Shown: in pieces, positions 5,101-58,555 of the stretch
Position numbering within the stretch: the first letter of the stretch is position 1
Layout of the letters: each line of letters begins with the position of its first letter
Assembly: GCA_018287875.1 (NCBI GenBank)
Contig: JAGVVL010000032.1
Location: forward strand, 82,585-146,584
From: Nigrospora sphaerica
Lineage: Eukaryota > Ascomycota > Sordariomycetes > Amphisphaeriales > Apiosporaceae
Direction of reading: 5' to 3'
Length of the DNA: 64,000 nucleotides
Program-made: the position numbers and the translations under genes
Notes under the pieces: model-generated
The model's input: the letters and a program-made list of their open reading frames with translations, nothing else
Told to the model about the DNA's origin: nothing
Databases searched by the model: none

Positions 5101-6230
5101 GCTTTTGGAATATTACAATGTAAATAGAATGCTAAACGAAAAAAGTATGCCTATTAACGTTGCATTATTAAAGTACGGTTATACTAATTTTAGTTTGACT
5201 ATCCTTGAAATTTGTGATAAAGATAGTCTTATGTCTAGAGAAAAATACTTTTTTGAAGTATACTCTCCTCACCCCCCTCACCCCAGCCCCTATCTCAAGG
5301 GCTGGGGGTGGGGGGGGGTGGAGTAGAATATATTAAAAACACCTGGAAGCCCTGAGAGAGGATCGGGATGAACACATTCTGAAGCTACAATAGAGAGTAT
5401 GCGTATTGCTGCTTCTAAGACATTCAAATCTCCGGAATTTTTAACTAAATTATCTAAAGGTCAATCTACTGGTATCGAAGTTGAGGTAACTGATTTGGAA
5501 ACAAATAATACTACTACTTATCATGCCATTAGAGCTGCAGCCCGAGCTTTAGATATAGACAAAAGATATATTGAACATTACATTTACTTAAAACAAGATA
5601 AACCTGTTTTAGGTAGATATACTTTTAAATTAAACTTAAACTCAGATAACAAAAGTATAAATTTAATTCCCGAAAAGGGAGGGCTTCTATGAAAGTGGAG
5701 GTTACTAACGTTGACACTAAAGAGGTTACAATATACTCTTCTATTACTGCAGCTGCTAAAGCATTAGGTTGACGATAACCTAGTATATCTTTATACTTAA
5801 AAGAAAATAGAACTAAACCTTTTAACCCAAAAAAATCTTCGATTTTTAAGGGCTAGGCCCAAGGACCTAGTCCTGGTTATTTTTTTTACCCTCCCTTGCG
5901 GGGAGGGGAAAAAAAAATTAGAAAGGAGGAAAATATTTATTCAAATTAGTAGACTAGAATACAGCAGTTTACGCTTAGGACTTTACTTAAAGAACATAAT
6001 CTGAGGATGAATTTGTTGAACGATTATCAGGTCACATGTTATTAAATATTTTAGCAGGTTTTACTTACAATATAATGACAAGTGGGATAGTATTCTTCTT
6101 TTTAGGATTAATACCTTTGTCATTTATTATAGCTTTTTCAGGATTGGAACTTGGGATAGCTTTTATACAAGCTCAGGTTTTTGTGGTTTTGTCATCGGGT
6201 TATATAAAGGATGGTCTAGATCTTCATTAA
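2139..6230 (+). CDS. atp6: ATP synthase Fo subunit 6 (a), split by two introns
   Basis: Subunit 6 forms the proton half-channels beside the c-ring. Exons are 2139-2485, 3881-4108 and 6023-6230, together 783 nt and 260 residues. TGA encodes Trp. Landmarks are MEKFNLNREIISPLSQFEIR at the start, the conserved SLGLRLAANI before intron 2, LSGHMLLNILAG after it, and the end LSSGYIKDGLDLH. Both exon junctions fit the group I rule (T before the intron, G as the last intron base). The last exon uses clearly more G/C in third codon positions (ttg, ggg, cag, gtg, tcg, aag) than exon 1. A second frame is open across all of exon 3 and runs on into the orphan downstream (see findings). Confidence 0.95.
2486..3880 (+). 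other. Group I intron 1 of atp6
   Basis: Interrupts the codon in NLIGMV-PYSFAS. Core elements are near the 3' end: a P-like tatgctgaaaactt (about 3630), a Q-like aatcagcaggaaatc (about 3699), an R-like cttagagactacacg (about 3778) and an S-like aagatatagtcca (about 3838). The rest is a LAGLIDADG ORF in frame with exon 1. Confidence 0.88.
2487..3569 (+). CDS. LAGLIDADG intron ORF in atp6 intron 1 (motif 1 altered)
   Basis: A double-motif LAGLIDADG homing endonuclease or maturase, read in frame as an extension of atp6 exon 1, about 360 intron-encoded residues with TGA as Trp. No frame break. Motif 1 is YLTGFVDGGAAGCF: compared with the usual GF-DGEGCF it has extra residues (GGAA) and lacks the acidic residue that binds the catalytic metal. 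Motif 2, IRGFIEAEGCF, is normal. The family hallmarks HFDSYPLITQK and NEYPLLGVKK follow each motif. DNA cleavage is therefore doubtful, while an RNA-splicing role could survive. The GC-rich stretch ggaggcgcagccgg at the altered motif suggests a tiny insertion. Confidence 0.85.
4743..5855 (+). pseudogene. Broken GIY-YIG endonuclease gene in atp6 intron 2
   Basis: Fragments of one GIY-YIG homing endonuclease can be read. The first is SPSSGLAIFSDADKDK...KSGISMWTNKLN (about 4755-4863), where GIY has become GIS. The second resumes as KKYVGSSLDLRRRLLEYYN with [16 protein letters not shown] and SREKYFFEVYSP (about 5062-5264). A third is a NUMOD1-like tail (5399-5692), and a fourth is a second tail read to about 5800 that contains a TAA. 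About 200 bp of composite hairpin element separates the first two pieces exactly inside the GIY-YIG module. A second hairpin insertion follows the FFEVYSP peptide. Almost certainly inactive. Confidence 0.85.
4864..5061. repeat. Composite hairpin element inside the GIY-YIG gene
   Basis: Order of parts: AT palindrome (tttattatttataataaa), a GC palindrome (aggactaggacaggctagtc), a second palindrome (ccctctctcgaccctaagag with its inverted arm), the short hairpin actctctacagagagtga, and another AT palindrome ending ttagaagccgggg. A nearly identical block of about 120 bp lies at 41300-41425. Parts recur at 8528-8650, 34558-34613, 51628-51680, 58185-58252 and 63853-63930. Confidence 0.88.
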
Positions 6231-6235
6231 GTTTT

Positions 6236-7795
6236 TTGTCTAGTTTTTCTATGATTATGAATAAAAAAATTCTAAACGCTAAAAATAAATTTAAAGATTT
6301 AAGTATTATCTTTACAGACGACTTTATGCCGCCAAAACCGCATAAATTTACAGCAGCAAAACCCTTACAAAGTGGATTGAATTTTGATATTTTTAGTTTA
6401 AACAATATATTATCCTATTATGATATAATTATTTTAATGGTTTCAAACTATTTAAAAATAGATCTTCAATGAGTAACTATTTTAGTTAATAATTTAACTT
6501 TAGTAGGTCCTATACTTTTGATAAAAGGGCCCGCTTTAGGAAAATTTCTATTAATATTGTTTCGTTTTATTCGAATAAAAATCTTGAATTATATAAATAG
6601 TGAGCTTGCGCCTTGAAATAAAATAAAATCTATGCTTATTCGTTTATTAAAACCTAAATTTACTTTATTAATAATAGATTGTAGAAATTATGGTATTTCT
6701 ATAGGAATAAAAAATTTTATTGCTAATACATATAAAGATATTATCTTATTGAATAACATAAATATAAATGATTTAAATATTTTTTTATTTTGTTGGGGTA
6801 CAATTTTTATGGTATCTGGTATAGATTGTTTGGTACTTTTAGGTCACATTCTTTTGAATTTTTCTACTGTTATATCTTTATGAGCTTTAACTTTCTACTT
6901 TATGAGTAATAAAGAGATAAAAAAATTTTCACCTGAATGACAAAAATTAGGTGAACTTTTTTTACTAAGTTTATTATTTATAGGGTTATTCATTCTTTTG
7001 AAAGAAATATTTTTCTTTATTATATTAGCTAATTTAAAATGAAAAAATTTAAAAAAAAAATTGTGAGATAATATAGAAGATTATATCCTTAAAGTGTCGT
7101 CTAAACATAATTTAAGATCTACAGCCAAAGGATCTTCAGGTTCTCATGGACCTAAAAAACCAGGGGGTCCAAATAATGACGTATTAACAGATGATCCTAA
7201 TAAAAAAAAAAGAGTTTATAGAGCTCGTAGACCTGCTGCAGAGATACAATTCGATCGAGAATTGATAGGATTTTATGCAGAACGAAAAGAAGGTGAGACA
7301 ACACCAGAATTTGAAGAAAGAGTAAAAAGAAAAGACTATAGAGACCATCATAAAGGAGCTGCTCTGGTTAATAAAGCGAGACGTGAACTATATAAAAATA
7401 ATGAAGAATATAGAAAAAAGGTTCTTGAGGCTAATAAAAATGGTAATAAAGATAAGGTAAAAGAACAAATAAGAAAAACTGCATGGAACAAAAAGAATAT
7501 TGAACGACAAAATACATTATATGTGAATTATAGTGATGTAGTTTTACCTGACAAAAGTGATCCTCAATATTATACACAGCTAGCTTCATTACTGAAAAAA
7601 AACGAAGGTAAAAGATTATCAGCTATAGTGTCTTTTGGAAAAAAAGTTAAAGAAAGGGATTCATCTGTTGTGGAGAAAGCTTTGATTGAATTAAGAAAAG
7701 AAGATCCTAGTATATTTAATTTAAAAAGACCTAATACAACTGTGATTGATAAGGCTTTTCTTTCGAAGATTGCCCAAAAAGGTGAAAAAAATTAA
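6236..7795 (+). CDS. Orphan ORF downstream of and overlapping atp6 (519 aa)
   Basis: Not recognised. Read with TGA as Trp it is one open frame, from a TTG at 6236 (first ATG 6251) to TAA at 7795. The N-terminal half has several hydrophobic segments (for example around VTILVNNLTLVGPILLI, INDLNIFLFCWGTIFMVSG and LGELFLLSLLFIGLFILL), suggesting a membrane anchor. From about residue 285 it is hydrophilic and very basic, with KKKRVYRARRPAAEIQFDREL, KARRELYKNNEEYRKKV and QIRKTAWNKKNIERQNT. No LAGLIDADG, GIY-YIG, polymerase or reverse transcriptase motif is visible. The same frame is open upstream through all of atp6 exon 3, so translation might start inside atp6 or by frameshifting. Its position resembles the orphans at cox3, cox2 and nad5. 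Confidence 0.75.
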
Positions 7796-10508: not shown

Positions 10509-10518
10509 CAAAAAAAAA

Positions 10519-10603
10519 AGGAAAGTTCCTTTATTGGTAAGAAGGGCTGAGCTGTAAACTCAGTAGCTAGCTGCTTTTAAGAGTTCGAATCTCTTGTTTC
10601 CTA
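10519..10603 (+). tRNA. trnY: tRNA-Tyr (GUA)
   Basis: Cloverleaf with loop ctGTAaa and a long variable arm. TpsiC arm gagttcgaatctc. Acceptor aggaaag/gtttcct with one mismatch. It follows rns by 10 bases. Confidence 0.92.
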
Positions 10604-10608
10604 TATAA

Positions 10609-10679
10609 GTCCCTATAGCTCAAGGGTAGAGCCTGGTACTGTTAATATCAAGATAGATGTTCGATTCATCTTGGGGACG
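10609..10679 (+). tRNA. trnN: tRNA-Asn (GUU)
   Basis: Acceptor gtcccta/tggggac. Anticodon loop contains GTT. D loop caagggtaga. Five bases after trnY. Confidence 0.92.
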
Positions 10680-10965
10680 TTATATTCTTTTTCCTGCTCC
10701 GGCTCCGCAGCCCAGTACGTCCTTAGACGGACGAAGGGCTAATTTTTTGAATTATTATAAAAAAATAAGCCTCCAGGGGTATGCGCTTGCTCCCCCGTTA
10801 TTTTTTTTTATTATTATAAATAATAAAAAAAAAATGGGGTCTAATGCATTAGTCGTTTTTGACTAATTTTTTCCCCAGGGAAAAAATAATGGAACACGGA
10901 GCAAGCACCCTTTGGGGTTAAAAAAAAATATTCTACTGCGCATTGGTCCGTCCTTGGACTAAGAA
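10680..10965. repeat. Hairpin spacer between trnN and trnK
   Basis: Contains a copy of the cagcccagtacgtccttaga element (about 10708-10742), an AT palindrome, and a taatgcattagtcg/gactaattttt element ending ggaacacgg (about 10836-10900). No gene. Confidence 0.85.
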
Positions 10966-11037
10966 GGGATATTAGCATAACGGTAATGCATGTGACTTTT
11001 AATCATCAATATATAAGTTCGAATCTTGTATATCCTA
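10966..11037 (+). tRNA. trnK: tRNA-Lys (UUU)
   Basis: Acceptor gggatat/atatcct with a G-T first pair. Anticodon loop cttttaa gives TTT. TpsiC arm with gttcgaatc. Confidence 0.88.
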
Positions 11038-11186
11038 TAAAGAAAAGAGGCGGTTTGGGTGAAGAGGTTTTTACGTGAAAGGTAGGTAAGCTGGACATAA
11101 ATTACCTCAGTAGGTTCGCTCCTACTCCCTCTCTTATCTTTTCCCGGTCCCCTAAGGCATTAAAGCTTGCGGGGACCGATAAAAAA

Positions 11187-11257
11187 GCGGCCATAAGTTA
11201 ATGGTAGACTAATCGACTTCCAATCGAAGTGTGTCGATTCGAATTCGACTGGCCGTA
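11187..11257 (+). tRNA. trnG: tRNA-Gly (UCC), copy 1
   Basis: Acceptor gcggcca/tggccgt with one G-T pair. Anticodon loop cttccaa gives TCC. First copy of the 126-bp tandem unit. Confidence 0.92.
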
Positions 11258-11312
11258 TAGAATTATTTCCCGGTCCCCTAAGGCATTAAAGCTTGCGGGG
11301 ACCGATAAAAAA

Positions 11313-11383
11313 GCGGCCATAAGTTAATGGTAGACTAATCGACTTCCAATCGAAGTGTGTCGATTCGAATTCGACTGGCCGTA
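11313..11383 (+). tRNA. trnG: tRNA-Gly (UCC), copy 2
   Basis: Identical to the copy 126 bp upstream; the second unit of the tandem duplication. Either copy could be functional. Confidence 0.92.
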
Positions 11384-11394
11384 TAGAATTAAAA

Positions 11395-11467
11395 GGATTA
11401 GTAGCTTAATTGGTCAAGTGTTTCCTTGTCGAGGAAGAGTATATCGGTTCGAGGCCGGTCTAGTCCG
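11395..11467 (+). tRNA. trnD: tRNA-Asp (GUC), copy 1
   Basis: Acceptor ggattag/ctagtcc. Anticodon stem tttcc/ggaag with loop ttgtcga. First of two trnD copies; its TpsiC stem pairs better than that of the copy at 13266. Confidence 0.92.
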
Positions 11468-11480
11468 TGAGTATATAGAA

Positions 11481-11561
11481 GGAAAAGTTTCCATAGGTAG
11501 GGTAAGATATTTGCTAAATATTGTGTTGTTTCATGTGGGTGTTCGAATCACCTCTTTTCCG
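11481..11561 (+). tRNA. trnS: tRNA-Ser (GCU), copy 1
   Basis: Acceptor ggaaaag/cttttcc. Anticodon loop ttgctaa gives GCT. Long variable arm. Lies 13 bases after trnD, in the segment duplicated at 13266-13432. Confidence 0.92.
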
Positions 11562-11785
11562 CTCCAATTTAGGCCAATATACTTTCTGCTCATCCCGTAT
11601 CCCTTATCCCAACCCCCTCTCTCTAATAAAAGAGAGAGAGGGGGTGGGGTCAGGGGGGAGGCTAGGCTAGCCCCAGGAGCCCTCTCTCTCGATGGGGGAA
11701 GAGGGAAAAAAGTACGGAGAGAGGGGCTGGGGGGTGTAACCGAATAAAAAGGCCGAAATAGTGGTATTAGGGGTAAGAGTTCTGA
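11562..11785. repeat. Hairpin spacer after trnS(GCU)
   Basis: Contains the ctctctaataaaagagagag palindrome (about 11624-11640) and a ccctctctctcgatggggga hairpin. The first part, to about 11640, also belongs to the segment repeated at 13432-13512. No gene. Confidence 0.8.
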
Positions 11786-12772: not shown

Positions 12773-13265
12773 GAAACACTAGAAAATTAGGTCCCTTTTC
12801 CTTTTAATCCTTCTTTCCTTACCCGGAAGGGTTGGGGAAGAAGGATAAATTACATTTAAGAGCCGAGCTTGCTAATTTTTTTTTATTATTATAAATAATA
12901 ATAAAAAAAAATAATAGAGCAAGCTTGCGCTTTAACTATACCATTATATAAATAGTCATGAAGAGCTTCTAGCTAGCGCCCCACCCCCGGCTTCTAATTT
13001 TTTTTATTATTATTTATAATAATAAAAAAAAAATAACCCCACAAGCTTGCGGCACCCCCCGCATATGCGGGGGTGAGGAGGGGAGAAAGGGAGGGGCGCA
13101 TGCATCCCGGCCCTGTCCCCCGGGCCGCTTGCGCTTTGAGGATGCTTTCAGGAAAGGGGAGCATCCACACCCCTTTTAGCCTTCTTATCAAAATCGTAGA
13201 TTTTGATATTCTATTATATTGAATTAGACTATACTTACTTAGTGTTTAAATTAGAAGTTGGATAA
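12773..13265. repeat. Hairpin spacer before the second trnD
   Basis: No gene. AT palindromes (tttttattattataaataat) at about 12890 and 13005, GC-rich hairpins at 13040-13100 and an aaaatcgtagattttgat hairpin at about 13189-13206. Confidence 0.8.
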
Positions 13266-13338
13266 GGATTAGTAGCTTAATTGGTCAAGTGTTTCCTTGT
13301 CGAGGAAGAGTATATCGGTTCGAGGCCAGTCTAGTTCG
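13266..13338 (+). tRNA. trnD: tRNA-Asp (GUC), copy 2
   Basis: Nearly identical to the trnD at 11395. Two substitutions (ggccagt for ggccggt and ctagttc for ctagtcc) weaken the TpsiC and acceptor stems. Part of a segmental copy of about 250 bp. Confidence 0.8.
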
Positions 13339-13351
13339 TGAGTATATAGAA

Positions 13352-13432
13352 GGAAAAGTTTCCATAGGTAGGGTAAGATATTTGCTAAATATTGTGTTGT
13401 TTCATGTGGGTGTTCGAATCACCTCTTTTCCG
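13352..13432 (+). tRNA. trnS: tRNA-Ser (GCU), copy 2
   Basis: Appears identical to the trnS at 11481, including the GCT anticodon and the acceptor ggaaaag/cttttcc. Confidence 0.9.
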
Positions 13433-13762
13433 CTCCAATTTAGGCCAATATACTTTCTGCTCATCCCGTATCCCTTATCCCAACCCCCTCTCTCTAATAA
13501 AAGAGAGAGAGGGGCTGGGGGGAAGGTGTAAGCTCTAAGAAAAATAACTGTAAGGGTCGTAAGTTAGAATAATTATTATATACTTTTATAAGAGTATATA
13601 GATGGATAAGTTAATTACGGGGGGCATAGCCGGCTCCCAAACGATGTATCTTGGTACTTTATATCTTTAATCTCTTCTTACCTTTTTACCAAGTTTTCAT
13701 ATAACCTTAGGGGTTATAAGGAAACCAGGGTAGGGATGATAGATTACGTAATGTGAAAGTAA
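13433..13762. other. Spacer between trnS copy 2 and the tRNA-like copy
   Basis: The first 80 bases are the end of the segmental duplicate. The rest contains a palindrome-like stretch ataaccttaggggttataag (about 13692-13711) and no ORF or RNA that I recognise. Confidence 0.6.
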
Positions 13763-13833: not shown

Positions 13834-13878
13834 CTTAATTTACCTTTACGAAGGTTAAAATTTAAAATATTTATAAAT

Positions 13879-16418
13879 ATGAATAATTTATTTCTTATAT
13901 ATGAAACATATACAAATGGTTATAGAACAGAGATATTAGATATCATTTCATTATTGGCTATTTTATGTGGTATATTAGTTATTACAAGTAAAAATCCTAT
14001 TGTCTCGGTTTTATTTTTAATAGGTTTATTTGCAAGTATATCTTGTTATTTAATAATGTTAGGTTTAAGTTTTATAGGTTTATCTTATTTAATAGTATAT
14101 ATAGGAGCAGTTTGAAAATATGTATGAAAAAATGTGGCTGCATTGGTTCAATTCCAATTCTACAAGGGACTTTTTATTCTAATTAAATTTTTCTATTTGG
14201 TACAAGGGATAACTATATATAATGTTGTTTCTTCGACATATTCAGGTAAATCTAAGATTTACACTTCAAGAGTAGGCAATAAATTTTATTCTACTCTGTC
14301 TAGTTCTGATAAAAAGGATGAAGAGTTTTATAAATGATTCGTAGGATTTGCAGATGGTGAATCAAATTTCACTATAGTGTTTCAAAAAGATACAAATGGT
14401 AATATAACAGGAGCTAGTTTTAGATTTATTATTGAATTGCATATTGACGATATAGATACTTTAAAATATATAAAAAGCAAATTAAATTTAGGTAATGAAA
14501 TAGCAGTTTATGGTAATAGTTGTAAATTTACAGTTATACATAGAAGAGATATTAGTAAATTAATCTCTGTATTCGATAAATATAACTTAAACACAACTAA
14601 ATACCTTGACTATTTAGATTTTAAAAAAGCTTTTCACTTATATTACGATAATAATAGAGGCGTGCCTCTAAACAAAAGAACTCTAATAGATCAATTGTTA
14701 AAATTCAAAAATGGAATGAATAAAAATCGATTCGAATTTAATTTCCCTGAGGATTATAAAATAGTAGTTTCTGATTATTGATTATTAGGTCTTATAGAAG
14801 CTGAAGGTTCATTCTATTTAGATAGAAGTAAACTTCAACCTGTTTTTATGATAGCACTTACTAAGATTCAACTTCCAGTCATAAAAAAAATAAACGATTA
14901 TTTAATAAATAATTTAGGGTTTGATAAATATTCTAAGTTTAAACTGGAAAATTCATCTGCTATCGCTATTGTTGAAAATAAAGAGCGAAACAATGCTAAA
15001 TGTTTAATAAGACTTACAATTTCAAATATAAATATCTTAACTAATTATTTCATACCTTATTTAGAAAATAAGAGATTTATTACTAAAAAAGGTAAGGATT
15101 TTCAGGATTTTAAAATTATATGTAGAGCGATATATAATGGAGCCTACAGAACTGAAGAAATTAAATCATTGATATTAAAATTATCATATACTATGAATAA
15201 TTTTAGATTATCTAGTAACTCAGATACGAACAAGGTTTCTAAAGAGGAGCTAGATAAGATATTAAATGCTAAATCTACTATTATACATTTAGATGATGGT
15301 CGTCAGTTAGATAATATAACTAAAAAAGAGATAAATAGACGTTGAACTAATTGTGTATATGAAATAATCCAAAGTTCAGGTGAAATAATCTTAGCTTCTA
15401 CTTTAAATGAAGCGGCTGAAAATTTAAAGGTTGATTTTAGAACAGTAAAGAGAAACTTAGATTCTCTTTCTGAGCAAAGTGGCATCCGTGATAATTTCGT
15501 AGAAGTTAAAGAGAACCTAGTGAGAAGAGTATCAGTGTTTTATCCTTAATAACATTAAATCTTTATTAGTTTAAGTTTATAAACTATCTTTTCAAGACAT
15601 ATGTCTAAAAATAGAAAAATAGAAGAATAAAAGCATAGTTTAGAATGAAGGTTACAACCGTACTCTTCTATACTTGTAGAAAAATTAGGTGAAAACGGTT
15701 AACGATATCCTGATCAAAGACCGTCGGCAGTTGTAAATGTCGCTACAGACTGGTTCACCGGGGCTGGGTTGGAAAACCTGTCTAAATGTACAGTCGAATT
15801 CTATAATGAATGTATAATCATCATAAGGAGGAAGGACAATCCTATATTCCCTCCCCGCTGCGCTAATTCGCGCAGCGGGGAGGGAATAAAGTAGGATAAC
15901 CATTTACATATTTGGTAAGAACTCCTGGATATATTTAGCATTGACAAATTGCTAATTTTATCTTAGTTAATTAGAATTGTTCTATATTATTCTTGTTCAT
16001 ATTAATGTTAATTAATATTAGAATAAGTGAATTACAAAGTAATACTAGCAATAGTATACCCTTAGCTATTGCTATAGGAATATCTTTTAATTATCCTTTA
16101 TTCCAATTATTACCTTATAACATTGCGATGTTAAATAATTATTTTAATTTAAATAACATTTTATCTAATGTTTCGTATCCTTCAGGTTTAAATCAAGATA
16201 ATAAAGCATACTTAAATACTTATGATAACGATATCTTTTTTGTGACAAGTAAAATGTGAGATGGTAATTTAATAGAGAATAGTCATATTACTAGTATAGG
16301 TAATGTGATGTATACAAACTTTAATATGTGACTAATAATAGCTAGTTTTATTCTATTATTAGCCATGGTTGGTGCTATAGTAATTACAATTAAATCTGAC
16401 AAAGGATCTCGGGCCTAA
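13879..16418 (+). CDS. nad6: NADH dehydrogenase subunit 6, split by one intron
   Basis: Membrane subunit of complex I. Exons are 13879-14111 and 15980-16418, together 672 nt and 223 residues. Landmarks: MNNLFLIYETYTNGYRTEIL, the conserved GLSYLIVYIGAV at the exon 1 end, SILFLFILMLINIRISEL at the start of exon 2, and the last helix WLIIASFILLLAMVGAIVITI. The tail KSDKGSRA is short. The junction follows the T/G group I rule. A second, diverged copy of the last helix lies about 700 bp downstream (17009-17102). Confidence 0.94.
14112..15979 (+). other. Group I intron of nad6
   Basis: Interrupts YIGAV-SILFLF. The 3' core has aaagaccgtcggcag (about 15716), gctacagactggttcacc (about 15743) and ctaaatgtacagtcgaattc. 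The same core type occurs in nad5 intron 1 and cob intron 1. A hairpin (ccctccccgctgcgctaatt with inverted arm) sits in a loop at 15850-15885. Confidence 0.88.
14113..15549 (+). CDS. LAGLIDADG intron ORF in nad6
   Basis: An intact double-motif LAGLIDADG protein fused in frame to nad6 exon 1, about 478 intron-encoded residues. Motif 1 is WFVGFADGESNF and motif 2 is WLLGLIEAEGSFYL, both with their catalytic acids. After the second domain the protein continues with a NUMOD1-like DNA-binding repeat (YEIIQSSGEIILASTLNEAA and FRTVKRNLDSL), which explains its length. TGA is read as Trp at several sites. No frame break. Confidence 0.9.
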
Positions 16419-17008
16419 CCAAAGCCTAGGTTACTCTAGGTTAAAAGTTGAATTTACCTTCGACCCAGGTCCAGTTACCCACCCCGCAAGCTTGTATACC
16501 TAAGGGTTTGATAACCGACTAGCAGGGCTAGGCTGAACCTTTCGACCCTTTTTTCTCCCTCACCCCAGGGGTGAGGGGAAAAAAGGCCGGACTAGGAACC
16601 GCAGCTAGACTAAGAAAAATCGAAGATTTTTCTAAGGCTAGCCCTAACCTCGACCCATGTCCACCCCTGGGGTGGAGGGGGGTGGGTGGCGGAAACTTGG
16701 CCATGGGTCTAGCCGGTATCCCCTCCCCCCTGTCACTCTCTGTAGAGAGTGATGCACCCTCTCTTAGGGTCGAGAGAGGGCGAGGGGGGACGGGATTAGA
16801 AAAGGAGCTTGTATCCTTTTTGCATGCACCCCTCCCCCTTGAACCCTCCCCCCGGAGGGGGTGAGAGGGGGGATCAGGGGGGAGGGGTCAGGAGGGGCAA
16901 GCTCCCTATGCTGGTATGAATAAAGGTCGTATATATTTAATAATTATTACTATTGAACTAACTAATTAACTATTAGTTATATATTAGTCTTCTATAACAA
17001 CATTATTT
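16419..17008. repeat. Hairpin spacer after nad6
   Basis: No gene. GC-rich hairpins include the inverted ctctctgtagagagtgatgc / tctcttagggtcgagagagg element (about 16737-16778) and an aaaaatcgaagatttttcta hairpin. AT-rich from 16920. Confidence 0.8.
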
Positions 17009-17102
17009 TCATATGTACACTAATTATAATGTGTGACTTATTATAGCTAGTTTATATTATTATTAGCAATGGTAGGTGCTATAGTAATAACAATAAAACA
17101 AA
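17009..17102 (+). pseudogene. nad6: Displaced second copy of the nad6 3' end
   Basis: The stretch atgtacactaattataatgt ... gtgacttattatagctagtt ... atggtaggtgctatagtaat aligns with the last helix of nad6 (about 16305-16398), with many substitutions and one 2-base deletion. It keeps MVGAIVITIK in one frame but the rest of the gene is absent. It is then followed by unrelated sequence. Divergence this large between copies in one genome suggests that one of them came from another lineage. Confidence 0.85.
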
Positions 17103-17652
17103 AAATTAAGGATAGTTTTTTTTTTGTTTTTGCTATCCCGGGTCCTGTTTCTGCTTTATATATCAATGATATATATCCACTAATCGTTTATTCCATTCCT
17201 AACCCGGCAAGCCGTATTCCCCTTCTCAAAGGGATATGCTTGCCTCCCGGATCCCCTCCCTCCTTCCAGGAAGGAGGTCCAAGACCATGGTCTTGGATAT
17301 TTTTTTTTTTATGGCAGGGGGGCTCGGCCATAAAAAAATCAAAGATTTTTTTATGGCCGTGTTCCATTATTTTTTTTTTTTTGAAAAAAAATTAGTCTTT
17401 GACTAATTTTTTTTTCCAAAAAATAAGCGACCCCAGGGGCGCTTCGCTGATCCCCTGCACCCCAGGGGTGAGGGGGATATGGAACTAATTTTTTTTATTA
17501 TTATAAATAATAATAAAAAAAAAATAACCCTAAAAATTAGAAGGGGGGGATGGGGGGATCAGTGCGCCCTTCTTTAAAAATAGCCTAAAAATAGTAAAAA
17601 AAAAATAAACAAAAAGAATTAAAAATAAACGGAGGTTGAAAGGAACCTTAAA
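17103..17652. repeat. Hairpin spacer between the nad6 end copy and trnV
   Basis: The nad6-like frame runs on as KQKIKDSFFFVFAIPG but soon enters hairpin elements (gaccatggtcttgg, taatttttttttattattat). No gene. Confidence 0.75.
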
Positions 17653-22700: not shown

Positions 22701-23683
22701 TTGTTTTTACGTTAATACAAAAAAGCTAAAACTCTATCAGGTATTCAGGTTATTATGACTTTCTCTATAGATCAACATGTGAGAGATGAGGTATTGTTAA
22801 CTAATCTTATTGATTATCTAGGGTGCGGTCAAATTGAGAAAGTTCGAACAAGACCTAATCAAGTTAAGTTTGTTGTGTATAAATTTAACGATATTCTTAA
22901 TAAGATAATACCTTTTTTAAAAGCTATCCTTTACAAGGAATAAAGGCTATGGATTATAAAGATTTCTGTGCTATTTCCAAAATTATGGAGGATAAATCTC
23001 ATTTAACTCCCGAAGGTTTAAAGAAACTAAAATCTTTAAAATCTGGGATGAATAAAGGTAGAATGTAAAGTTAATTATTTATTGAAAAAAAAGTAAAGTG
23101 TAGGCCCTGTTTGAATTCATATTTAAGTTTATTTTTATAATTATTATAAATAATAATTCAAAAAATTAGCCCTTCGTCCGCTGGCGGCGTACTGGGCTGC
23201 GGATTATTTTTTGAGGCTTTGCCTCAAAAAAATTAGGCAGTTAATAAATATAAAATATGTAATTTTTACAGAAAACAAGGTTAATTGCATGGAGTTCTTT
23301 ATATGTTATATATTTATATAAAATAAAAATAAAAGATAATATGCAGCCAATCATCTATTAAAATATTACAAAGAATTTTTAATGTTGAAGGTTCAACGAC
23401 TAATAAAATAGTGTATTATTCTAATACAATTTTTCAAATTTTGCAGTATAATATACTGCATATTATACTGAAGATATAGTCTAAACAATAATGAAAGTTA
23501 TTGATAATATATGTACACGTTATAATAGGAACAGCTTTCTTAGCAGTAGCTTTATGAAGAATATATTCTTACCATTTAACAGATAACCATCATTTAGGTT
23601 TTGAGGGTGGAATTTTATACTGACACTTTGTTGATGTAGTTTGACTATTTTTGTACGTGTCTATTTACTACTGAGGTTCTTAA
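19776..23683 (+). CDS. cox3: Cytochrome c oxidase subunit 3, split by two introns
   Basis: Core subunit III of complex IV. Exons are 19776-19994, 21508-21928 and 23514-23683, together 810 nt and 269 residues. Landmarks: [31 protein letters not shown] at the end of exon 1, [19 protein letters not shown], the conserved [32 protein letters not shown] across junction 2, and [20 protein letters not shown] at the end. Both junctions satisfy the T/G group I rule. An orphan frame overlaps the last part of exon 3 in another register. Confidence 0.95.
19995..20966 (+). CDS. LAGLIDADG intron ORF in cox3 intron 1
   Basis: About 323 intron-encoded residues continuing cox3 exon 1 without a break. Motif 1 is [16 protein letters not shown] and motif 2 is [16 protein letters not shown], both with acidic ends, and [19 protein letters not shown] near the C-terminus is typical of the family. 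TGA is read as Trp at 20538 and 20877. Likely a functional homing endonuclease or maturase of a group I intron. Confidence 0.9.
19995..21507 (+). other. Group I intron 1 of cox3
   Basis: Core elements in the 3' part: tatatgctggaaactcc (about 21286), aatcagcaggaaacc (about 21370), cctcagagactatatg (about 21415) and aagatataggcca (about 21469). The 5' part is a LAGLIDADG ORF fused to exon 1. Hairpin elements lie between the ORF and the core (20970-21240). Confidence 0.88.
21929..23068 (+). pseudogene. Frame-broken LAGLIDADG gene in cox3 intron 2
   Basis: Continues exon 2 with an N-terminal extension containing a GC hairpin read through in frame (about 22074-22140). It then shows motif 1 [16 protein letters not shown] and motif 2 [14 protein letters not shown]. 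The frame slips at an A run near 22718 and again at the ttttttaaaagc run near 22917. After each slip the expected family sequence resumes ([37 protein letters not shown]). Two one-base losses would explain both. Recent decay or sequence error. Confidence 0.85.
21929..23513 (+). other. Group I intron 2 of cox3
   Basis: Splits the Leu codon of FHG-L-HV. Near the 3' end are aggttcaacgactaataa (about 23388) and gaagatatagtctaa (about 23470). Upstream lies a LAGLIDADG gene that starts in frame with exon 2. A hairpin element interrupts the region at 23160-23235. Confidence 0.87.
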
Positions 23684-24693
23684 TAGAGTCTCTATTTAAT
23701 TTTAGAAATTTAAGAGCTTGCGCGTGCATTCCTTCGGTACCGAAGGGGGCTGCAGGCGCTTTGGTTATCTTTAGCATTTTTCCTTTATCTGTGGTTTTAC
23801 CATCTTCATTTTTATTGGCTTCATCTTCAGGAGATGAAGATGATTATTCAGGATCAGAGGATTTTTCAGATTCAGATGATTCTTCAGGATCAGAGAAATC
23901 TTCAGGATCCAAAAATAAAGATATAGATACACGATTAGGATCTATACAGTCTGATCGTGAAAATTTAAATAGGGCTATGTCTAATGCGAACCCTAGTGGT
24001 AAAAGAAAAGCTATAGGAGAATTACAAGAAAGATATCCAAAAAAACTTAAAAACGTAGAAAGCCTAGATGAATTTTTAGAAAAGGTAGATGAAGAATTAA
24101 CTTCTAAAACTAAAGATGTTACGGGTGGATCTAATGATTCAGATGTTGATCCTGATGAGAAGTTAAATCTTCATGAAGAACACGTTTTAGTAGATAAAGC
24201 TCGTAATGGAGATAAGGATGCTGTAAGAGAATTACAGGATAGATTCCCTGAATTTTTTGAAGGCGCTAGTACTTTTCAAGGGCTAGATCGAGTAGATCGT
24301 ATGATAGAATTGGAAATTATGGAGAATATTCGTAATGAAAAACCTGGTTTAAGTGATTCTGAAGTTGAAGCTATACTAGCTTCAATGAAAGAAAACAATA
24401 CTAAGAAAAAAGATAAGGATAAGGATGACGATGATGATGACGATTCTAAAGGAGGTGGTGATAGTGCTAGCGGTCTAGGAGGTAGTACAAGTGGTCCTTC
24501 TGGAGGTTCTTCATCGGCAGGTCCTTCTGCTTCTGGAGGTTCTTCATCCGCAGGTCCTTCTGCTTCTGGAGGTTCTTCATCCGCAGGTCCTTCTGCTTCT
24601 GGAGGTTCTTCTTCTAAAGTATCATCACCTTTAGATTATGTTCTTGAAAAAGAAAGTATCGAAATGCCCTCTTTATTTGAAGGGGATGAATAA
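23641..24693 (+). CDS. Orphan ORF overlapping the cox3 3' end (350 aa from TTG)
   Basis: Not recognised. The frame is open from 23587, inside cox3 exon 3 but in another register, to TAA at 24693; the listed start is the TTG at 23641. A short hydrophobic N-terminus includes a GC-rich hairpin read in frame (tccttcggtaccgaaggggg) and a segment ALVIFSIFPLSVVLPSSFLL, which may be a membrane anchor. The rest is hydrophilic: an acidic Ser/Asp/Glu tract (SGDEDDYSGSEDFSDSDDSS), two similar stretches GELQERYPKKLKN and RELQDRFPEFFEG, KKKDKDKDDDDDDDSKGG, then an 11-residue repeat GGSSSAGPSAS. No enzyme motif. It resembles the orphan after nad5 in having an anchor plus a charged low-complexity body. Confidence 0.75.
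   Translation: MTIFVRVYLLLRFLIESLFNFRNLRACACIPSVPKGAAGALVIFSIFPLSVVLPSSFLLASSSGDEDDYSGSEDFSDSDDSSGSEKSSGSKNKDIDTRLGSIQSDRENLNRAMSNANPSGKRKAIGELQERYPKKLKNVESLDEFLEKVDEELTSKTKDVTGGSNDSDVDPDEKLNLHEEHVLVDKARNGDKDAVRELQDRFPEFFEGASTFQGLDRVDRMIELEIMENIRNEKPGLSDSEVEAILASMKENNTKKKDKDKDDDDDDDSKGGGDSASGLGGSTSGPSGGSSSAGPSASGGSSSAGPSASGGSSSAGPSASGGSSSKVSSPLDYVLEKESIEMPSLFEGDE
24504..24613 (+). repeat. 33-bp in-frame tandem repeat in the cox3-linked orphan
   Basis: About 3.3 copies of a 33-bp unit beginning ggaggttcttcatc and encoding GGSSSAGPSAS. The copies differ at only one or two positions. The period keeps the frame. Confidence 0.92.
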
Positions 24694-45900: not shown

Positions 45901-46567
45901 TATATAAAAAATGAAAAAGTGTTTCAGAATTTCTTATGTAAATACTCAAAGAAAGCTTTACCTGAAAATTTTGAACAAGTAGGATTAATTATGGATGAAT
46001 ATAAAAAATTAAAAATAGATACTTATTTATTAAAAGTTAATAGAAAAAATAAACCTTTAATAGTGAGAGGAGAAAATTTTGAAAAAGAATTTGAAAGTAT
46101 TATGGATACAGTTAAATACTTTTATACTTTAAACATCAAATTAGATAGAAAAACTTTAGATCTTCGTTTAAAAGATGGTAAAATTTATAAAAATTATTTT
46201 TTTGCTTATAAATAAATTTAACCTTTCGCAACCCTTGATCCCCCTGATCGGGGGTTCGGGGGAAGGGAAGAAAAAAAATTTTTTTTTCACTTCCGACCCT
46301 AAAGCGTGAAGCTTCCCCCAAATACGTTGGTTTTTTTATTATTGTTTAAGGACTCAATGCAAGCTCTCAAAAAAAAAATTAAGTGAGCTTGCTAATCCCT
46401 GATTACCGAAGGGATCAGGGATTAATAAGAATTTATTAATTACATTAAATTAAGGTAGAGATAATTTGCAATGTTCTGAAATATGTGGAATTTTGCACAG
46501 TTCGATGCCAATTGTAGTGGAGTCTGTGAACCTGGAAAGGTACTTGAGCTGACTGGATGCGCAGTAA
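39926..46567 (+). CDS. cox2: Cytochrome c oxidase subunit 2, split by four introns
   Basis: Carries the CuA centre that accepts electrons from cytochrome c. Exons are 39926-40009, 41675-41821, 43144-43404, about 44099-44263, and 46469-46567, together 756 nt and 251 residues. Landmarks: [67 protein letters not shown], and the CuA ligands in [14 protein letters not shown]. The end [14 protein letters not shown] is foreign in codon use: 16 of 32 codons in exon 5 end in G or C, against 4 of 28 in exon 1. An orphan frame starts inside exon 5. Confidence 0.95.
40277..41275 (+). CDS. LAGLIDADG intron ORF in cox2 intron 1
   Basis: Intact, 332 residues from the listed start, but the frame is open all the way from cox2 exon 1 through the intron core. 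Motif 1 [15 protein letters not shown] and motif 2 [15 protein letters not shown] both keep the acid. Other family signatures are [20 protein letters not shown] and [18 protein letters not shown] is read as Trp at 40482 and 41024. The best-preserved endonuclease gene in the window, so this intron may be mobile. Confidence 0.92.
41300..41430. repeat. Composite hairpin element, second near-identical copy
   Basis: The same order of parts as at 4940-5061: ccctctctcgaccctaagag palindrome, actctctacagagagtga, AT palindrome, and ttagaagccgggg at the end. The agreement over about 120 bp at two distant introns indicates recent spread. Confidence 0.92.
41822..43143 (+). other. Group I intron 2 of cox2
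   Basis: Splits KYLNHG-TLIELIW; T before and G at the end. Core at the 3' end: ctgaacgctggaaagtcc (about 42810), aatcaagcaggaaacc (about 42909), cctagagactaaacg (about 42958) and tatatagtcca (about 43102). A hairpin element is inserted between the R-like and S-like parts (43023-43090). Confidence 0.88.
42015..42773 (+). CDS. GIY-YIG homing endonuclease in cox2 intron 2
   Basis: 252 residues from ATG, with the frame open a little further upstream. The catalytic module is [20 protein letters not shown], followed by the conserved Arg in [11 protein letters not shown] and the helix [18 protein letters not shown]. Then come NUMOD3-type repeats ([35 protein letters not shown]) and a NUMOD1-type tail ([20 protein letters not shown]), which bind DNA. 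Only TGA-as-Trp interrupts the standard-code frame. A small GC hairpin (ggggagtgcttacgccccct at 41895-41914) separates it from the exon 2 frame and may have cut an original fusion. Confidence 0.9.
43405..44098 (+). other. Group I intron 3 of cox2, without ORF
   Basis: Core: agccaaactccgggtaaatcc (about 43448) and gagcaacgagtagacgg (about 43668), the same class as cox2 intron 1. No coding frame remains. It contains a GC element (ctagcacaggactagcctgt at about 43845). The junction is ambiguous over aga: no choice gives both T before the intron and G at its end, so both ends carry an uncertainty of three bases. Confidence 0.8.
44264..46468 (+). other. Group I intron 4 of cox2
   Basis: Splits VFYG-QCSE; T before and G at the end. 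Core at the 5' end: caaattgcgggaaacccc (about 44312), caatctgcagccaag (about 44427), gttcatcgactaaacg (about 44467) and aagatatagtcag (about 44514). A GIY-YIG gene follows. Confidence 0.9.
44777..46215 (+). pseudogene. GIY-YIG endonuclease gene in cox2 intron 4, one frame break
   Basis: The module is [20 protein letters not shown] with [11 protein letters not shown] and [20 protein letters not shown] is GVY here, which is common. Upstream, a GC hairpin (ccccgcaagcttgcgggggg) is read through in frame, so an insertion has lengthened the N-terminus without breaking it. At 45575 the frame stops at TAG and resumes one base later as [20 protein letters not shown], then runs to 46215 through NUMOD1-like repeats ([20 protein letters not shown] and [20 protein letters not shown]). 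A single lost base explains the break. Confidence 0.82.
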
Positions 46568-47340
46568 GATCAGCCGCGGCATTCCCGTTAGAGTTACTTA
46601 ATACACTACCGTTGGAGCTGCCTTCTTTAGAAGGGTTTGGGTTTGAAGAACCCTACTTAATAGAGATAGGCAAAAACCTTAGCTTAGACTTGGATATTAG
46701 AGGTATTTCTACGCCTCCGGCGCCAGAATTTGAGATAGAACTTTGTACTTCGGTTCAGAATTACTGAGAATATAATCTGGTATCCCACGGCGGCTGATCG
46801 ACAAATGAATGTACAATATTAAATCCAGCGTCAGGTCTTTTAGATTGATTAGGTGTAGGTGTATTAGTTAAAAAAATTATGTTAAATCCTTTAAGTCTTT
46901 TAGACTTAATATGTGTAAGAATCCAGGATCATACATTAACAGGTGGTTTAGTGTGTGTAATAATCCAGGATCATACATTAACAGGTGGTTTAGCGTGTGT
47001 AATAATCCAGGATCATACATTAACAGGTTTAATACAAGTATTATGTACTAAATATTATCCTGAGAGCCCGCCTGTAACTAAATGAAGCCCTGCACCTAAT
47101 GTTAATAAACCTAAGTTATGGTTACCCGCACAGCACTTGGAGGGTTTAAGCGCCATTATACCAGACAAGGAAAAAGAACCGTATTATGTTCCGCCTAAAG
47201 TTCTTCCTGAAAGAATCTGGGTTGGTGGTAATATAATAGTGGATTGTCCATTATACAAGGAGAATGATAATATTAAATTACAAGGACCACCAAAACGACC
47301 ACGTTTTGGTGATCCGGGTTTACCTAGACCTAAACCCTAA
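46483..47340 (+). CDS. Orphan ORF overlapping the cox2 3' end (285 aa)
   Basis: Not recognised. It starts at an ATG inside cox2 exon 5 in another register ([20 protein letters not shown]) and runs to TAA at 47340 with TGA as Trp. It has a Leu/Glu/Pro-rich part (LELLNTLPLELPSLEGFGFE), a 14-residue repeat (VCVIIQDHTLTGGL, three copies), and a Pro-rich basic end (LQGPPKRPRFGDPGLPRPKP). Codon use is less AT-biased than in the core genes, like that of cox2 exon 5. No enzyme motif. The position suggests that it arrived with the foreign cox2 end; it could also be a chance frame, but its length and the frame-keeping repeat argue against that. Confidence 0.7.
46910..47032 (+). repeat. 42-bp in-frame tandem repeat in the cox2-linked orphan
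   Basis: Three copies of a 42-bp unit with the core aatccaggatcatacattaa (14 codons each). The copies differ at a few positions, and the period keeps the reading frame. Confidence 0.93.
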
Positions 47341-48109: not shown

Positions 48110-48111
<2 letters not shown>

Positions 48112-56300: not shown

Positions 56301-57307
56301 ATGCTTTTTATAAAGGATTATTATTCTTAGGAGCAGGAGCTGTAATTCACGCAGTAGCAGATAATCAAGATTTCAGAAAATATGGAGGATTGATATCATT
56401 CTTACCTTTAACATATTCTGTTATATTAATAGCTAGTCTTAGTTTAGTTGCTTTCCCTTTCATGACTGGATTCTATAGTAAAGATTTTATATTAGAGTCT
56501 GCTTTTGGTCAATTCCATTTTAGTAGTGTTGCTGTTTATGTTATAGCAGTAATAGGTGCAATATTTACTACTTTATATTCAGTTAAAGTTCTATACTTAA
56601 CTTTCTTAACTAACCCTAATGGATCTATGGCATATTATAAACATGCTCATGAAGGTGATATATTCTTAAGTCTACCTTTAGTAATATTAGCCATATTTTC
56701 TATATTCTTTGGTTACTTAACTAAAGATATTTTTATAGGTTTAGGTTCAAGTTTCTTTATAGATAATAGTATATTTGTTCATCCTGTTCATGAAATAATG
56801 TTAGATACTGAATTTGCAGTACCTGTTTTATTTAAATTATTACCTTTAATCTTTACTGTTTCATTCAGTATATTCGCGATTATTTTTTCTGAATTTTTAC
56901 CTGAATCTTTAATTAGTTTTAAATTCTCTAGATTTGGTTATAATATTTTCGGTTTCTTTAATCAAAGATTTTTAGTGGAAATGTTCTATAATAAGTATGT
57001 TACAAATTTAGTATTAGATTTAGGTGGACAAACTACTAAGGTTTTAGATAAAGGAAGTATAGAAATACTAGGGCCTTATGGTTTAGAAATAGGATTAGTT
57101 AAATTAAGTAAAAATATAGCATCTTTAAGTACAGGTGTAGTTACAAGTTATGCATTATATATATTAGTAGGTTTAATAGGATTTTTATCTCTTACTTATT
57201 TAGGATCTTTAAATATTTATTTAGCTTTATTAATAATATTAGTTTCTTTATGTTTAATGGGTAGTAATTCTAAAGGTAAAGTGAGGAAAGGAGGTGTTGA
57301 ATTCTAA
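50302..57307 (+). CDS. nad5: NADH dehydrogenase subunit 5, split by three introns
   Basis: Largest proton-pumping subunit of complex I. Exons are 50302-51011, 51353-51400, 52809-52980 and 56237-57307, together 2001 nt and 666 residues. Landmarks: [48 protein letters not shown] across junctions 1 and 2, [20 protein letters not shown] across junction 3, [18 protein letters not shown], and the end [15 protein letters not shown]. Junctions 1 and 2 obey the T/G rule; junction 3 lies in the repeated caattgg and cannot be fixed to the base. The 3' end exists in two further diverged forms downstream (see the orphan and the displaced copy). Confidence 0.95.
51012..51352 (+). other. Group I intron 1 of nad5, without ORF
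   Basis: Only 341 bases. Core: caagaccgtcggtattt (about 51202), gctacagactgggtcacc (about 51228) and aatgtacagtcggaagc (about 51269). The same core class as in nad6 and cob intron 1. The smallest intron in the window. Confidence 0.9.
51401..52808 (+). other. Group I intron 2 of nad5
   Basis: T before and G at the end. Core elements flank and intersperse the ORF: cgctatgtgctgggactg (about 51442), aatcagcaggaaac (about 51564), cttcagagactacatg (about 51807), aagatatagtccg (about 52671). A composite hairpin block (51625-51770) sits between the core elements. Confidence 0.87.
51771..52671 (+). CDS. LAGLIDADG ORF in nad5 intron 2
   Basis: The frame that starts in exon 2 stops inside a hairpin element. 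After the element an open frame shows motif 1 [16 protein letters not shown] and motif 2 [16 protein letters not shown], both intact, with [19 protein letters not shown] and [19 protein letters not shown] between and after them, to TAA at 52671. TGA is read as Trp at several sites. Without the exon fusion the start is uncertain (TTG 51682 upstream, or a later codon). The stop overlaps the S-like element of the core. Confidence 0.83.
53107..54894 (+). pseudogene. Two joined LAGLIDADG tracts in nad5 intron 3, frame-broken
   Basis: The first tract has motifs [17 protein letters not shown] and [16 protein letters not shown]; it slips one base at the T run near 53950 and resumes as [19 protein letters not shown]. 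In the same frame, without a stop, a second endonuclease type follows: [19 protein letters not shown], where the catalytic acid is replaced by Lys, and [16 protein letters not shown]. Further one-base slips lie at A runs near 54384 and 54594, and the tail ends [10 protein letters not shown] at 54894. Two endonuclease genes fused head to tail, both probably inactive. Confidence 0.8.
55256..56174 (+). pseudogene. Third LAGLIDADG relic in nad5 intron 3
   Basis: Starts around HHYLLFY-type sequence and shows [31 protein letters not shown] and [13 protein letters not shown] hairpin (cccccgcaggctggcttgcg) interrupts it at about 55640. In another frame it resumes as [20 protein letters not shown] and is interrupted again by aaacccccgcaagcgtgcgg (about 55837) and by an aaaaaatcttcgatttttaa element (about 55945). 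A close relative of the second tract at 54190-54890, so a duplication within the intron or two related introns. Confidence 0.8.
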
Positions 57308-57360
57308 GGAATATATACAGCTTAATTCTAGTTTTCTAGGAGATTTCTTAGCTCGTTTTA

Positions 57361-58173
57361 TTGCGAGAGTTTATCTATTTTATATTACTTATTTATTCCT
57401 CCGGGAAATTAGAAGGCGGTGAACCATCTAATTTCAAACGTCCTAGATCTGATAGTTCAGCCTCTGAACAATCCCAAAGCAAGAAACTCAAAACTGAGCA
57501 CAATCCATCTCCTGTCTCCGGCCCAGGACTCGCTGCGCAGTCTCTGCGCCTTAAAAAATCAAAGATTTTTTTTGGCCGAGGGGGTAATGAGTTATCTCCG
57601 GAATCTGTTATGTTAACTAGCAGTTTCTTTCCTCCTGGGCTTATAAATCTAATAAAAGCAGGATTTATTAGATTAAGTAAAAATATCGCATGATTAAGAA
57701 CTATTATCACAAGTTACCCCTTGTACATGTATGAGTTTCTAGCAAAATTCAAAAAAGTAATTTATTTCCTTCTAATTCTATATCTAGTTATTAAAAATTT
57801 TACTTCTTTACTTGATTTATTTTTAAATAAATCTGTACTATTTGCATCGTTCGATGCAAATAGTACAGATGATTCAATTCTAAATAAAAAAATTAAGGTC
57901 GAAAATAAAATGATTGAGTATCAAATGGAGCAATTAAAGGAGATAAAAAACCAGCTTAGTATTCTTCAAGATGAATCAAACTTAAGTAAAGAACAACAGG
58001 AAGAAAAAGAATTTTTACTGCAAGAAAAGGGGGAAATAGAAAGATTTATAAATAAAGAGGTTAAAGAAAAAATTAATTTAACTAAAGGTAAATCTAGCTA
58101 TAATACAAGCAATATTTCGGGTAGCAAAAGATTAGGTGGAGATTTAAATGCTGGTCCTTCACAAAAAAAATAA
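57361..58173 (+). CDS. Orphan ORF directly after nad5 (270 aa)
   Basis: Not recognised. Open with TGA as Trp from a TTG at 57361 to TAA at 58173. It has a short hydrophobic start (REFIYFILLIYSSG), a basic Ser-rich part (FKRPRSDSSASEQSQSKKLK), a GC/hairpin element read in frame (LRLKKSKIFFGRGG), then INLIKAGFIRLSKNIAWLRT and IITSYPLYMYEF, which align with the nad5 tail [21 protein letters not shown] hydrophobic helix (KKVIYFLLILYLVIKNF) and a coiled-coil-like charged part (EYQMEQLKEIKNQLSILQDE) follow, with a basic end. The middle was thus built from a nad5 3'-end copy. A decayed nad5 end follows about 200 bp downstream, so the orphan lies between two nad5 ends. Confidence 0.72.
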
Positions 58174-58274
58174 CCTACCTTTCTAATTTTTTTTATTATT
58201 TATAATAAAAAAAAATAACAGGACTAGGACAGGCTAGTCCTGTGCTAGGCCTGATCTCGAAAAAATTTTTTTAT
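58174..58274. repeat. AT and GC palindrome pair after the nad5 orphan
   Basis: Another copy of the tttttattatttataataaa + aggactaggacaggctagtc pair, as at 4864-4942 and 63853-63925. Confidence 0.88.
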
Positions 58275-58345
58275 TTTCATTAACTCAAAGGTAGAGGAGG
58301 ATACTTCTAATATCCTGATTTTATTTCGAATCTAAATTGAAGATA
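58275..58345 (+). tRNA. trnR: tRNA-Arg (UCU)
   Basis: Anticodon stem ggata/tatcc is perfect with loop cttctaa, giving TCT. Acceptor ttttcat/ttgaaga pairs at six of seven positions with one G-T. The D stem is weak. It clearly shares ancestry with the trnR(UCG) at 58991 (same anticodon-arm core, gatttta and TpsiC loop). Confidence 0.75.
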
Positions 58346-58368
58346 TTATTTTACGACCCCTTCGGGGT

Positions 58369-58555
58369 AAGGAAATAGGATTAGTTAAATTAAGTAAAAA
58401 TATAGCATCTTTAAGTACAGGTGTAGTTACAAGTTATGTATTATATATATTAGTAGGTTTAATGGGTAGTAATTCTAAAGGTAAAGGAGGAAAGGAGGTG
58501 TAGAATTTAAAGGTTTAATATATACAGAGAGCTTAATTTTAGTTTTGCCTTTCTA
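58369..58555 (+). pseudogene. nad5: Displaced, deleted second copy of the nad5 3' end
   Basis: Reads aaataggattagttaaatta ... acaggtgtagttacaagtta as in nad5 57091-57155. It then lacks roughly the segment encoding [17 protein letters not shown], and resumes with atgggtagtaattctaaagg ... ggaggtgtagaattt. The similarity continues past the nad5 stop into the flanking tatatacag...cttaatt...agttttc. The match is closer to nad5 than to the copy inside the orphan. Confidence 0.93.

Follow-up and report, generated by a model that had tools for sequence, protein, structure and literature searches.

The window analysed here is a stretch of 64,000 nucleotides from Nigrospora sphaerica (contig JAGVVL010000032.1, positions 82,585 to 146,584), which forms the final 64 kb of a 146,584-bp contig (C22) in an assembly of 51.6 Mb. 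Its content is mitochondrial DNA (mtDNA) of fungal type, with a unit of approximately 91.3 kb as deduced from copy offsets, and the mitochondrial genome is present 1.6 times on C22. We deal with the 3' ends of five core genes, atp6, nad6, cox3, cox2 and nad5, for which an original prediction had proposed a single class of inserted element. Its outline of the locus held: there are long orphan open reading frames (ORFs) at atp6, cox2, cox3 and nad5, and second ends of nad5 and nad6 (Table 1). Several of its details did not hold, as described below.

The stretch C22:1-55340 and window positions 8694-64000 are 99.46% identical, with 22 mismatches and 211 gap openings, and a separate contig, C24 (55,307 bp), represents a third and noisier mitochondrial copy. 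The window differs from the other copy on C22 (copy a) by 233 events and from C24 by 519, mainly small indels, which also hit rns, nad2 and rps3. Because frames in the window may be off by an indel, the three assembled copies were used as a check, and we call the form found in most of them the majority reading. Core genes were read with genetic code table 4 (TGA=W). The assembly contains the 55.3-kb stretch between rns and the window's end in triplicate, two copies being on C22 and one being C24. Hundreds of small indels separate them, and in the window these disturb the frames of nad2 (38104) and rps3 (29945).

Table 1. Features at the 3' ends of core genes, in window coordinates.
Feature	Position	Strand	Description
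atp6 orphan	6251..7795	+	514 residues: Cox1-tail-like segment, hydrophobic half, charged half
Cox1 C-terminus-like segment in atp6 orphan	6329..6379	+	PPKPHKFTAAKPLQSGL; cox1 end PPKPHAFVSLPLQSGV; z 7.8; 0/300 shuffles as high
nad6 in-place 3' end	16308..16418	+	29 conserved codons MYTNFNMW..ITIK, then tail SDKGSRA, stop; probably acquired
Spacer between nad6 ends	16419..17012	+	594 bp, GC-rich palindromic repeats
Displaced native-type nad6 end	17013..17109	+	MYTNYNVWLIIAS-ILLLAMVGAIVITIKQK..; T run one base short; QKIKD vs relatives' QKN-stop
cox3 orphan	23706..24693	+	Acidic; two similar 42-residue stretches; G/S-rich repeats; no ATG near start
cox2 last exon	46469..46567	+	Native C-terminus and stop; GC at codon position 3, 0.50 vs 0.19 in two other exons tested
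cox2 orphan	46471..47340	+	289 residues; other frame, over last 97 nucleotides of cox2
nad5 3' end	57083..57307	+	Complete, in place (structure alignment, tblastn)
nad5 orphan, majority reading	57294..58173	+	GTG start over nad5 stop; conserved C-terminal helical part; 293 residues
Old eroded nad5-end copy inside nad5-orphan frame	57652..57792	+	z 9.3; 0/300 shuffles as high
Recent partial nad5-end copy	58366..58547	+	In-frame 81-bp deletion, 1-nucleotide deletion, runs beyond stop

Two 3' ends at nad6

The in-place C-terminus of nad6 reads ..VMYTNFNMWLIIASFILLLAMVGAIVITIKSDKGSRA (16308-16418), and a second nad6 end opens exactly at MYT, 705 bp downstream, with the same 29 codons and 73 of 87 positions identical. 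A search with Nad6 found 7998 homologues, 120 of which are listed, and all tail counts given here refer to these 120. The SDKGSR tail of the in-place end recurs in only two of them, P0022 (100% identity to the query) and P0023 (98%), both ending in SRS. In turn, 101 have a tail that fits IT[IM]K[QP][KRQ], the kind encoded by the downstream copy. The residue that is F in the in-place end is Y in 112 homologues and F in five, with another residue in one and the stretch missing in two. The closest relatives besides P0022 and P0023, namely P0024-P0028 (92-93%), all end in MYTNYNMW..ITIKQKN; the downstream copy likewise encodes the Y, followed by a V where these five carry M, and then ITIK-QK and IKD, being one A short of the relatives' N-stop. 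Named protein relatives include Nemania diffusa (76%) and Sporothrix (72%). Both are Sordariomycetes. The expectation that relatives would carry the displaced end as their native 3' end was therefore borne out at nad6, on the protein level; atp6, cox2 and cox3 have no such native C-terminus downstream.

The two nad6 copies show 11 synonymous versus two non-synonymous codon differences, the in-place base having been used to fill one gap. Entirely random differences would be expected to include 9.2 non-synonymous codons, and as few as two appeared in none of 4000 simulations. Since the differences are mostly synonymous, selection seems to have acted on both copies during their divergence, a pattern that a decaying tandem copy would not give. 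From these comparisons nad6 looks like a genuine end swap. No endonuclease was recognised and no orphan was seen in the 594-bp spacer between both ends, whose palindromic repeats recur elsewhere in the mtDNA.

Several observations temper this reading. The scarcity of non-synonymous changes is less extreme if only half of the differences are taken as random (P=0.022), nad6 tails vary among fungi, and the V of the downstream copy departs from the M of P0024-P0028. The base missing from its T run, where neither other assembled copy differs, leaves the downstream end out of frame in the window. That the in-place end is of foreign origin is a proposal drawn from proteins and codon pattern. Two scans of viral contigs for DNA of close relatives returned none, and a scan of genome contigs retrieved nine loci, six of them at 53-59% nad6 identity, too distant to serve as relatives' DNA. 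Likewise, searches of the N. sphaerica genome for nuclear copies keeping the ancestral state, made with the cox3, nad6, nad5 and atp6 regions (the cox2 region was not searched), matched only C22 and C24 among the best candidates scored.

As a separate observation, six contigs filed as bacterial genomes (L020-L025) encode a nad6 product 53-59% identical to that of the window, and look like fungal mitochondrial contamination.

The nad5 end and its orphan

The end of nad5 is present three times, complete in place, as a recent copy downstream and as an eroded copy inside the orphan. When aligned with solved nad5, the in-place end reaches residue 347 of 360. The downstream copy is identical at 101 of 108 positions in its first piece and, with its disabling deletions, has the near-identical DNA expected of a decayed tandem duplication, unlike the nad6 copies, which differ at 14 of 87 positions and mostly synonymously. 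Hence, the displaced end that had been proposed for both genes is one at nad6; at nad5 it is a near-identical duplicate lacking 81 bp, with the complete end still in place, and looks like a recent ordinary duplication. A possible tRNA-Arg (tct) lies between the nad5 orphan and this second end (58273-58345), called by ARAGORN and not by Rfam.

In the window, the frame of the nad5 orphan is broken at 57397, lacking a CC that is present in both other copies. In the majority reading the frame is open for 305 codons from 57258, and GTG 57294 was taken as its start, which is the start of the homologue P0181. A mixed search yielded 31 homologues, 19 of which were aligned; they conserve the C-terminal part and differ in their N-terminal modules. 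Two of the 31, P0150 and P0156, contain a stretch like the C-terminus of a LAGLIDADG endonuclease directly before the conserved part and beside a segment resembling the nad5 end. This stretch matches a frame from the cox3 intron region (window 22961-23065), with E values of 6.8e-5 and 2.5e-5. The alignment further shows that about 21 residues of the endonuclease-like stretch are kept in P0176, P0177, P0179 and P0180 and only MNKGR in P0149 and P0151-P0154, nothing is left in P0181 and in the window orphan, and P0175 and P0178 have another body. Because two of the 31 homologues have this endonuclease tail beside a nad5-end-like segment, the nad5 orphan is likely derived from a gene-end element. 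It probably also coexists with an unswapped nad6 end in another strain, in that P0176 and the nad6 homologue P0024 both go with an 85,622-bp contig.

Nevertheless, Pfam did not detect the endonuclease remnant in P0150 and P0156. Moreover, in 17 of the 31 homologues the predicted protein starts only at MYEF or MYEL and has 148-149 amino acids, which may mean that the long form is not a general one.

Orphan frames at atp6, cox2 and cox3

In alignments with solved structures, the products of the last exons of atp6, cox2 and cox3 end no more than two residues from the C-terminus. Twelve core proteins, atp8 and atp9 not among them, were compared by tblastn (E up to 1) with the 91-kb unit, whole or as their 3' part. 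For atp6, cox2 and cox3 there was no DISPLACEMENT and no second end, and no displaced end was found for cox1, cob, nad1, nad2, nad3, nad4 or nad4L either, the Cox1-tail segment excepted.

The orphans had been described as starting inside the last exon in another register, which is true of cox2 only. The cox2 overlap is real, with the ATG of the orphan at 46471 and the cox2 stop at 46565-46567. The frame of the atp6 orphan is open through the last exon, but its start codon is ATG 6251, 20 nucleotides 3' of the atp6 stop. The overlap with cox3 stems from one extra G at 23745, absent from the two other assembled copies; under the majority reading, the frame opens only at 23706, 3' of the cox3 stop (23681-23683). 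Neither was the proposed excess of G/C-ending codons general. In the last exon of cox2 these codons amount to 16 of 32, whereas two other exons together have 22 of 113 (Fisher p=0.0011). Because the third codon position of cox2 coincides with the first of the orphan frame, where GC is 0.49 outside the overlap, the overlap can explain this value as well as a foreign origin would. At the end of atp6, they amount to 15 of 74 versus 22 of 119 in the first exon (with an approximate boundary, and the middle exon not included), and no foreign codon usage was found (p=0.85).

The atp6 orphan has 20 homologues, 15 of which were aligned. Eighteen are 89-99% identical over the full length, P0020 is 72% identical (89.5% in the first half and 57.1% in the second) and P0021 is 55% identical over the second half. 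The same start methionine is found in 18 of the 20; P0020 starts two codons later and P0021 is without the first half. This search retrieved copies of the orphan only, and could not reveal an empty site. Nine homologues were found for the cox2 orphan, seven of 249-290 amino acids (79-96%) and two of 105-106 amino acids. In one of them, P0145, there is an in-frame insert, NFLNYYNNSKNK, the peptide encoded by a short repeat that is scattered over the mtDNA of the window.

The frame is kept through 12 distinct internal gap intervals in the atp6 orphan and 17 in the cox2 orphan, some of the latter being artefacts around the late start of P0148. The atp6, cox2 and nad5 orphans have homologues with the same frame through indels and, judged in this way, are real, modular genes. 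A hydrophobic part joined to a charged one had been noted for the orphans as a whole; this build, read from sequence without a membrane predictor, fits the atp6 and nad5 orphans, and the cox1 orphan described below as well. The atp6, cox2 and nad5 orphans are probably inner-membrane proteins with a charged soluble part.

Residues 26-43 of the atp6 orphan resemble the Cox1 tail (PPKPHKFTAAKPLQSG / PPKPHAFVSLPLQSG), with a tblastn E value of 0.03 and, in a pairwise hhalign comparison, an E value of 2.6e-5 and a probability of 75%. The matched stretch is the very C-terminus in fungal Cox1 structures. Among the best 8 of 60 pairs of core end and orphan, only Cox1 with the atp6 orphan and nad5 with the nad5 orphan scored higher than all 300 shuffles. 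Given its Cox1 tail, the atp6 orphan was probably attached to the end of a cox1 gene at some time.

Chimeric ORFs associated with cytoplasmic male sterility in plants lie near core genes, consist partly of core-gene pieces and are hydrophobic. In this regard, pieces of core respiratory genes are found in the atp6 orphan (cox1 tail) and the nad5 orphan (nad5 end), and not in the other three orphans. In yeast, the C-terminal domain of Cox1 is a regulator of Cox1 synthesis and assembly. Speculatively, and with a low likelihood, the atp6 orphan might be a Cox1-tail mimic that interferes with, or rides on, the feedback on Cox1 synthesis. A start located at the host stop or overlapping it would tie its dose to the host gene, and chimeric membrane proteins made from recycled respiratory-gene tails would form a selfish or regulatory class in fungal mitochondria.

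The cox3 orphan contains two similar stretches of 42 amino acids (..KRKAIGELQERYP.. / ..DKDAVRELQDRFP..) and a G/S/A/P repeat, all within window positions 23983-24321 and about 24480-24640. A further orphan of 410 amino acids lies 3' of cox1, outside the window (G000:C22:77066-78298), with a hydrophobic N-terminus, a G/S-rich linker and a charged C-terminus, the same build as the atp6 orphan. Elsewhere in the window, a tRNA-Gly is part of a 126-bp tandem repeat (11140-11391), and a 257-bp direct repeat (11393-11649 and 13264-13520) carries tRNA-Asp and tRNA-Ser.

Origin of the extra ends and likeness to known systems

With a probability of roughly 0.57, we favour a repeated capture of gene ends by intron or endonuclease elements, after which the endonuclease would have been lost while the attached frames survived as modular genes located at the host stops or overlapping them. 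Intron- or endonuclease-borne elements with a copy of a core-gene 3' end would have entered the mitochondrial lineage repeatedly, leaving debris that differs by site. At nad6, the element would have brought the foreign last ~29 codons plus a new tail, pushing the native end 705 bp downstream, and its own reading frame would have been lost. At nad5, an element with a LAGLIDADG gene and a nad5-end segment would have been inserted; the endonuclease would then have eroded in frame, while the attached membrane or helical frame was kept, with its start now on the nad5 stop. The atp6 orphan looks like a reading frame that was captured and carries the end of cox1. The atp6, cox2 and nad5 orphans would probably be translated by re-initiation on the host mRNA, from starts that overlap the host stop or closely follow it. 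The foreign origin and this order of events are what we infer, as are expression, membrane location and any function.

Besides the points given above for nad6 and nad5, the following weigh against repeated capture. There is no endonuclease left at the gene ends of the window, and Pfam found none in the window orphans; instead of an insert encoding a homing endonuclease, there is an endonuclease-like C-terminal stretch in nad5-orphan homologues only. A single mixed search, shared by four proteins, gave no homologue for the cox3 and cox1 orphans. In addition, the database lists open frames only, so that the conservation of frame is partly ascertained. Structure models of the atp6 and nad5 orphans are of low confidence, with mean predicted local distance difference test scores of 42.4 and 49.5, that of the nad5 orphan containing just two helices of moderate confidence.

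A possible but clearly less likely alternative is that the extra ends are ordinary short tandem duplications in decay, and that the orphans are unrelated free-standing frames, found downstream of the genes as these are all on one strand. The near-identical nad5 copy with its deletions agrees with this, as do the truncated gene copies reported in Sclerotinia borealis (PMC4162613) and Endoconidiophora resinifera (PMC6279837) and the absence of displaced ends at atp6, cox2 and cox3. However, it does not account for nad6 copies that differ almost only synonymously, the downstream one with the tail type of the relatives, nor for an endonuclease-like tail and gene-end segments sitting in orphan frames, with homologues of the orphans held by other sequences.

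The single class of element targeting gene ends, originally proposed for all five sites, is very unlikely. It would fit the position of the orphans at or soon after core-gene stops, the hydrophobic-plus-charged build of several of them and the gene-end pieces contained in two, but three of the genes (atp6, cox2 and cox3) have intact native ends and none displaced, and the masked orphans show no significant mutual similarity. Before masking, two of 10 orphan pairs, cox3-cox1 and cox3-atp6, exceeded 150 of 150 shuffles. After removal of low complexity, the score of cox3-cox1, the best of 11 pairs, was reached in 4 of 400 shuffles, which is not significant once pairs are counted, and that of cox3-atp6 in 120 of 400. 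A profile of the 42-residue stretches of the cox3 orphan retrieved from 343 ORFs, after itself, the cox1 orphan (E 0.85) and the atp6 orphan (E 3.9), neither significant, and in hhalign the profile of the atp6 orphan matched neither the cox1 nor the nad5 orphan. In these comparisons there is no evidence that the orphans form one family. Slightly less likely still is that nad6 holds an intron-like insert whose removal rejoins the native end, leaving both ends usable, as the start of both ends at the same codon 705 bp apart and the host-gene duplications in Tremella fuciformis introns (PMC7315562) might suggest, because no group I match was found at the nad6 break (E up to 0.5) and the downstream end is out of frame, with neither other copy differing there.

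If repeated capture is true, the window displays graded steps on the way from a mobile element to a resident gene, with nad6 as a swap without the element, nad5 as an endonuclease tail eroding beside a kept frame and atp6 as a kept frame with a captured tail. A domesticated versus a selfish gene-end-capture origin of mitochondrial orphan ORFs would become testable, and phylogenies of nad6 ends could mix lineages.

Several fungal systems can be compared with this one, on the basis of excerpts of the respective papers. In Sclerotinia borealis, there are truncated copies of core genes, one of atp9 running into an unrelated peptide (PMC4162613). Extra core-gene fragments are common to the window; in that species they are described as duplications, and the excerpt describes no swap of ends. 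Introns of Tremella fuciformis hold gene fragments exchanged by mobile elements (PMC7315562); unlike in the window, they are mostly N-terminal and still within introns. Endoconidiophora resinifera, an ascomycete as well, has partial C-terminal copies of cob and atp6 downstream of the genes and degenerate endonucleases (PMC6279837). It resembles the window in its second gene ends downstream and in the degenerate endonuclease genes nearby, and differs in that a retained non-endonuclease orphan is not described in the excerpt. We found no description, in the literature excerpts consulted, of retained non-endonuclease orphans with gene-end pieces or exchangeable modules, of orphan starts located at the host stop or overlapping it, or of a Cox1-tail copy in an orphan.

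The closest likeness is to Glomus sp., where atp6, atp9, cox2 and nad3 each combine a foreign C-terminus with an endonuclease ORF and a displaced native end, and to Allomyces macrogynus, whose atp6 is a hybrid of mobile ORF and gene as told in the same paper (PMC3630166). In Glomus cox2 the inserted C-terminus comprises 96 bp and lies behind a group I intron (PMC3630166); the same length is that of the coding part of the cox2 last exon in the window. The window departs from these hybrids in its gene ends without an endonuclease frame, in its non-endonuclease orphans with homologues and in atp6, cox2 and cox3 without a displaced end, and it belongs to a different phylum. What it shares with them lies at nad6, with a putatively foreign C-terminus in place, the native one downstream and mostly synonymous differences. 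By analogy, nad6 matches what is seen in Glomus except for the missing endonuclease, and nad5 fits an eroded version of it. The comparison suggests that the system in the window is a variation on the mobile-ORF gene hybrid of Allomyces and Glomus.

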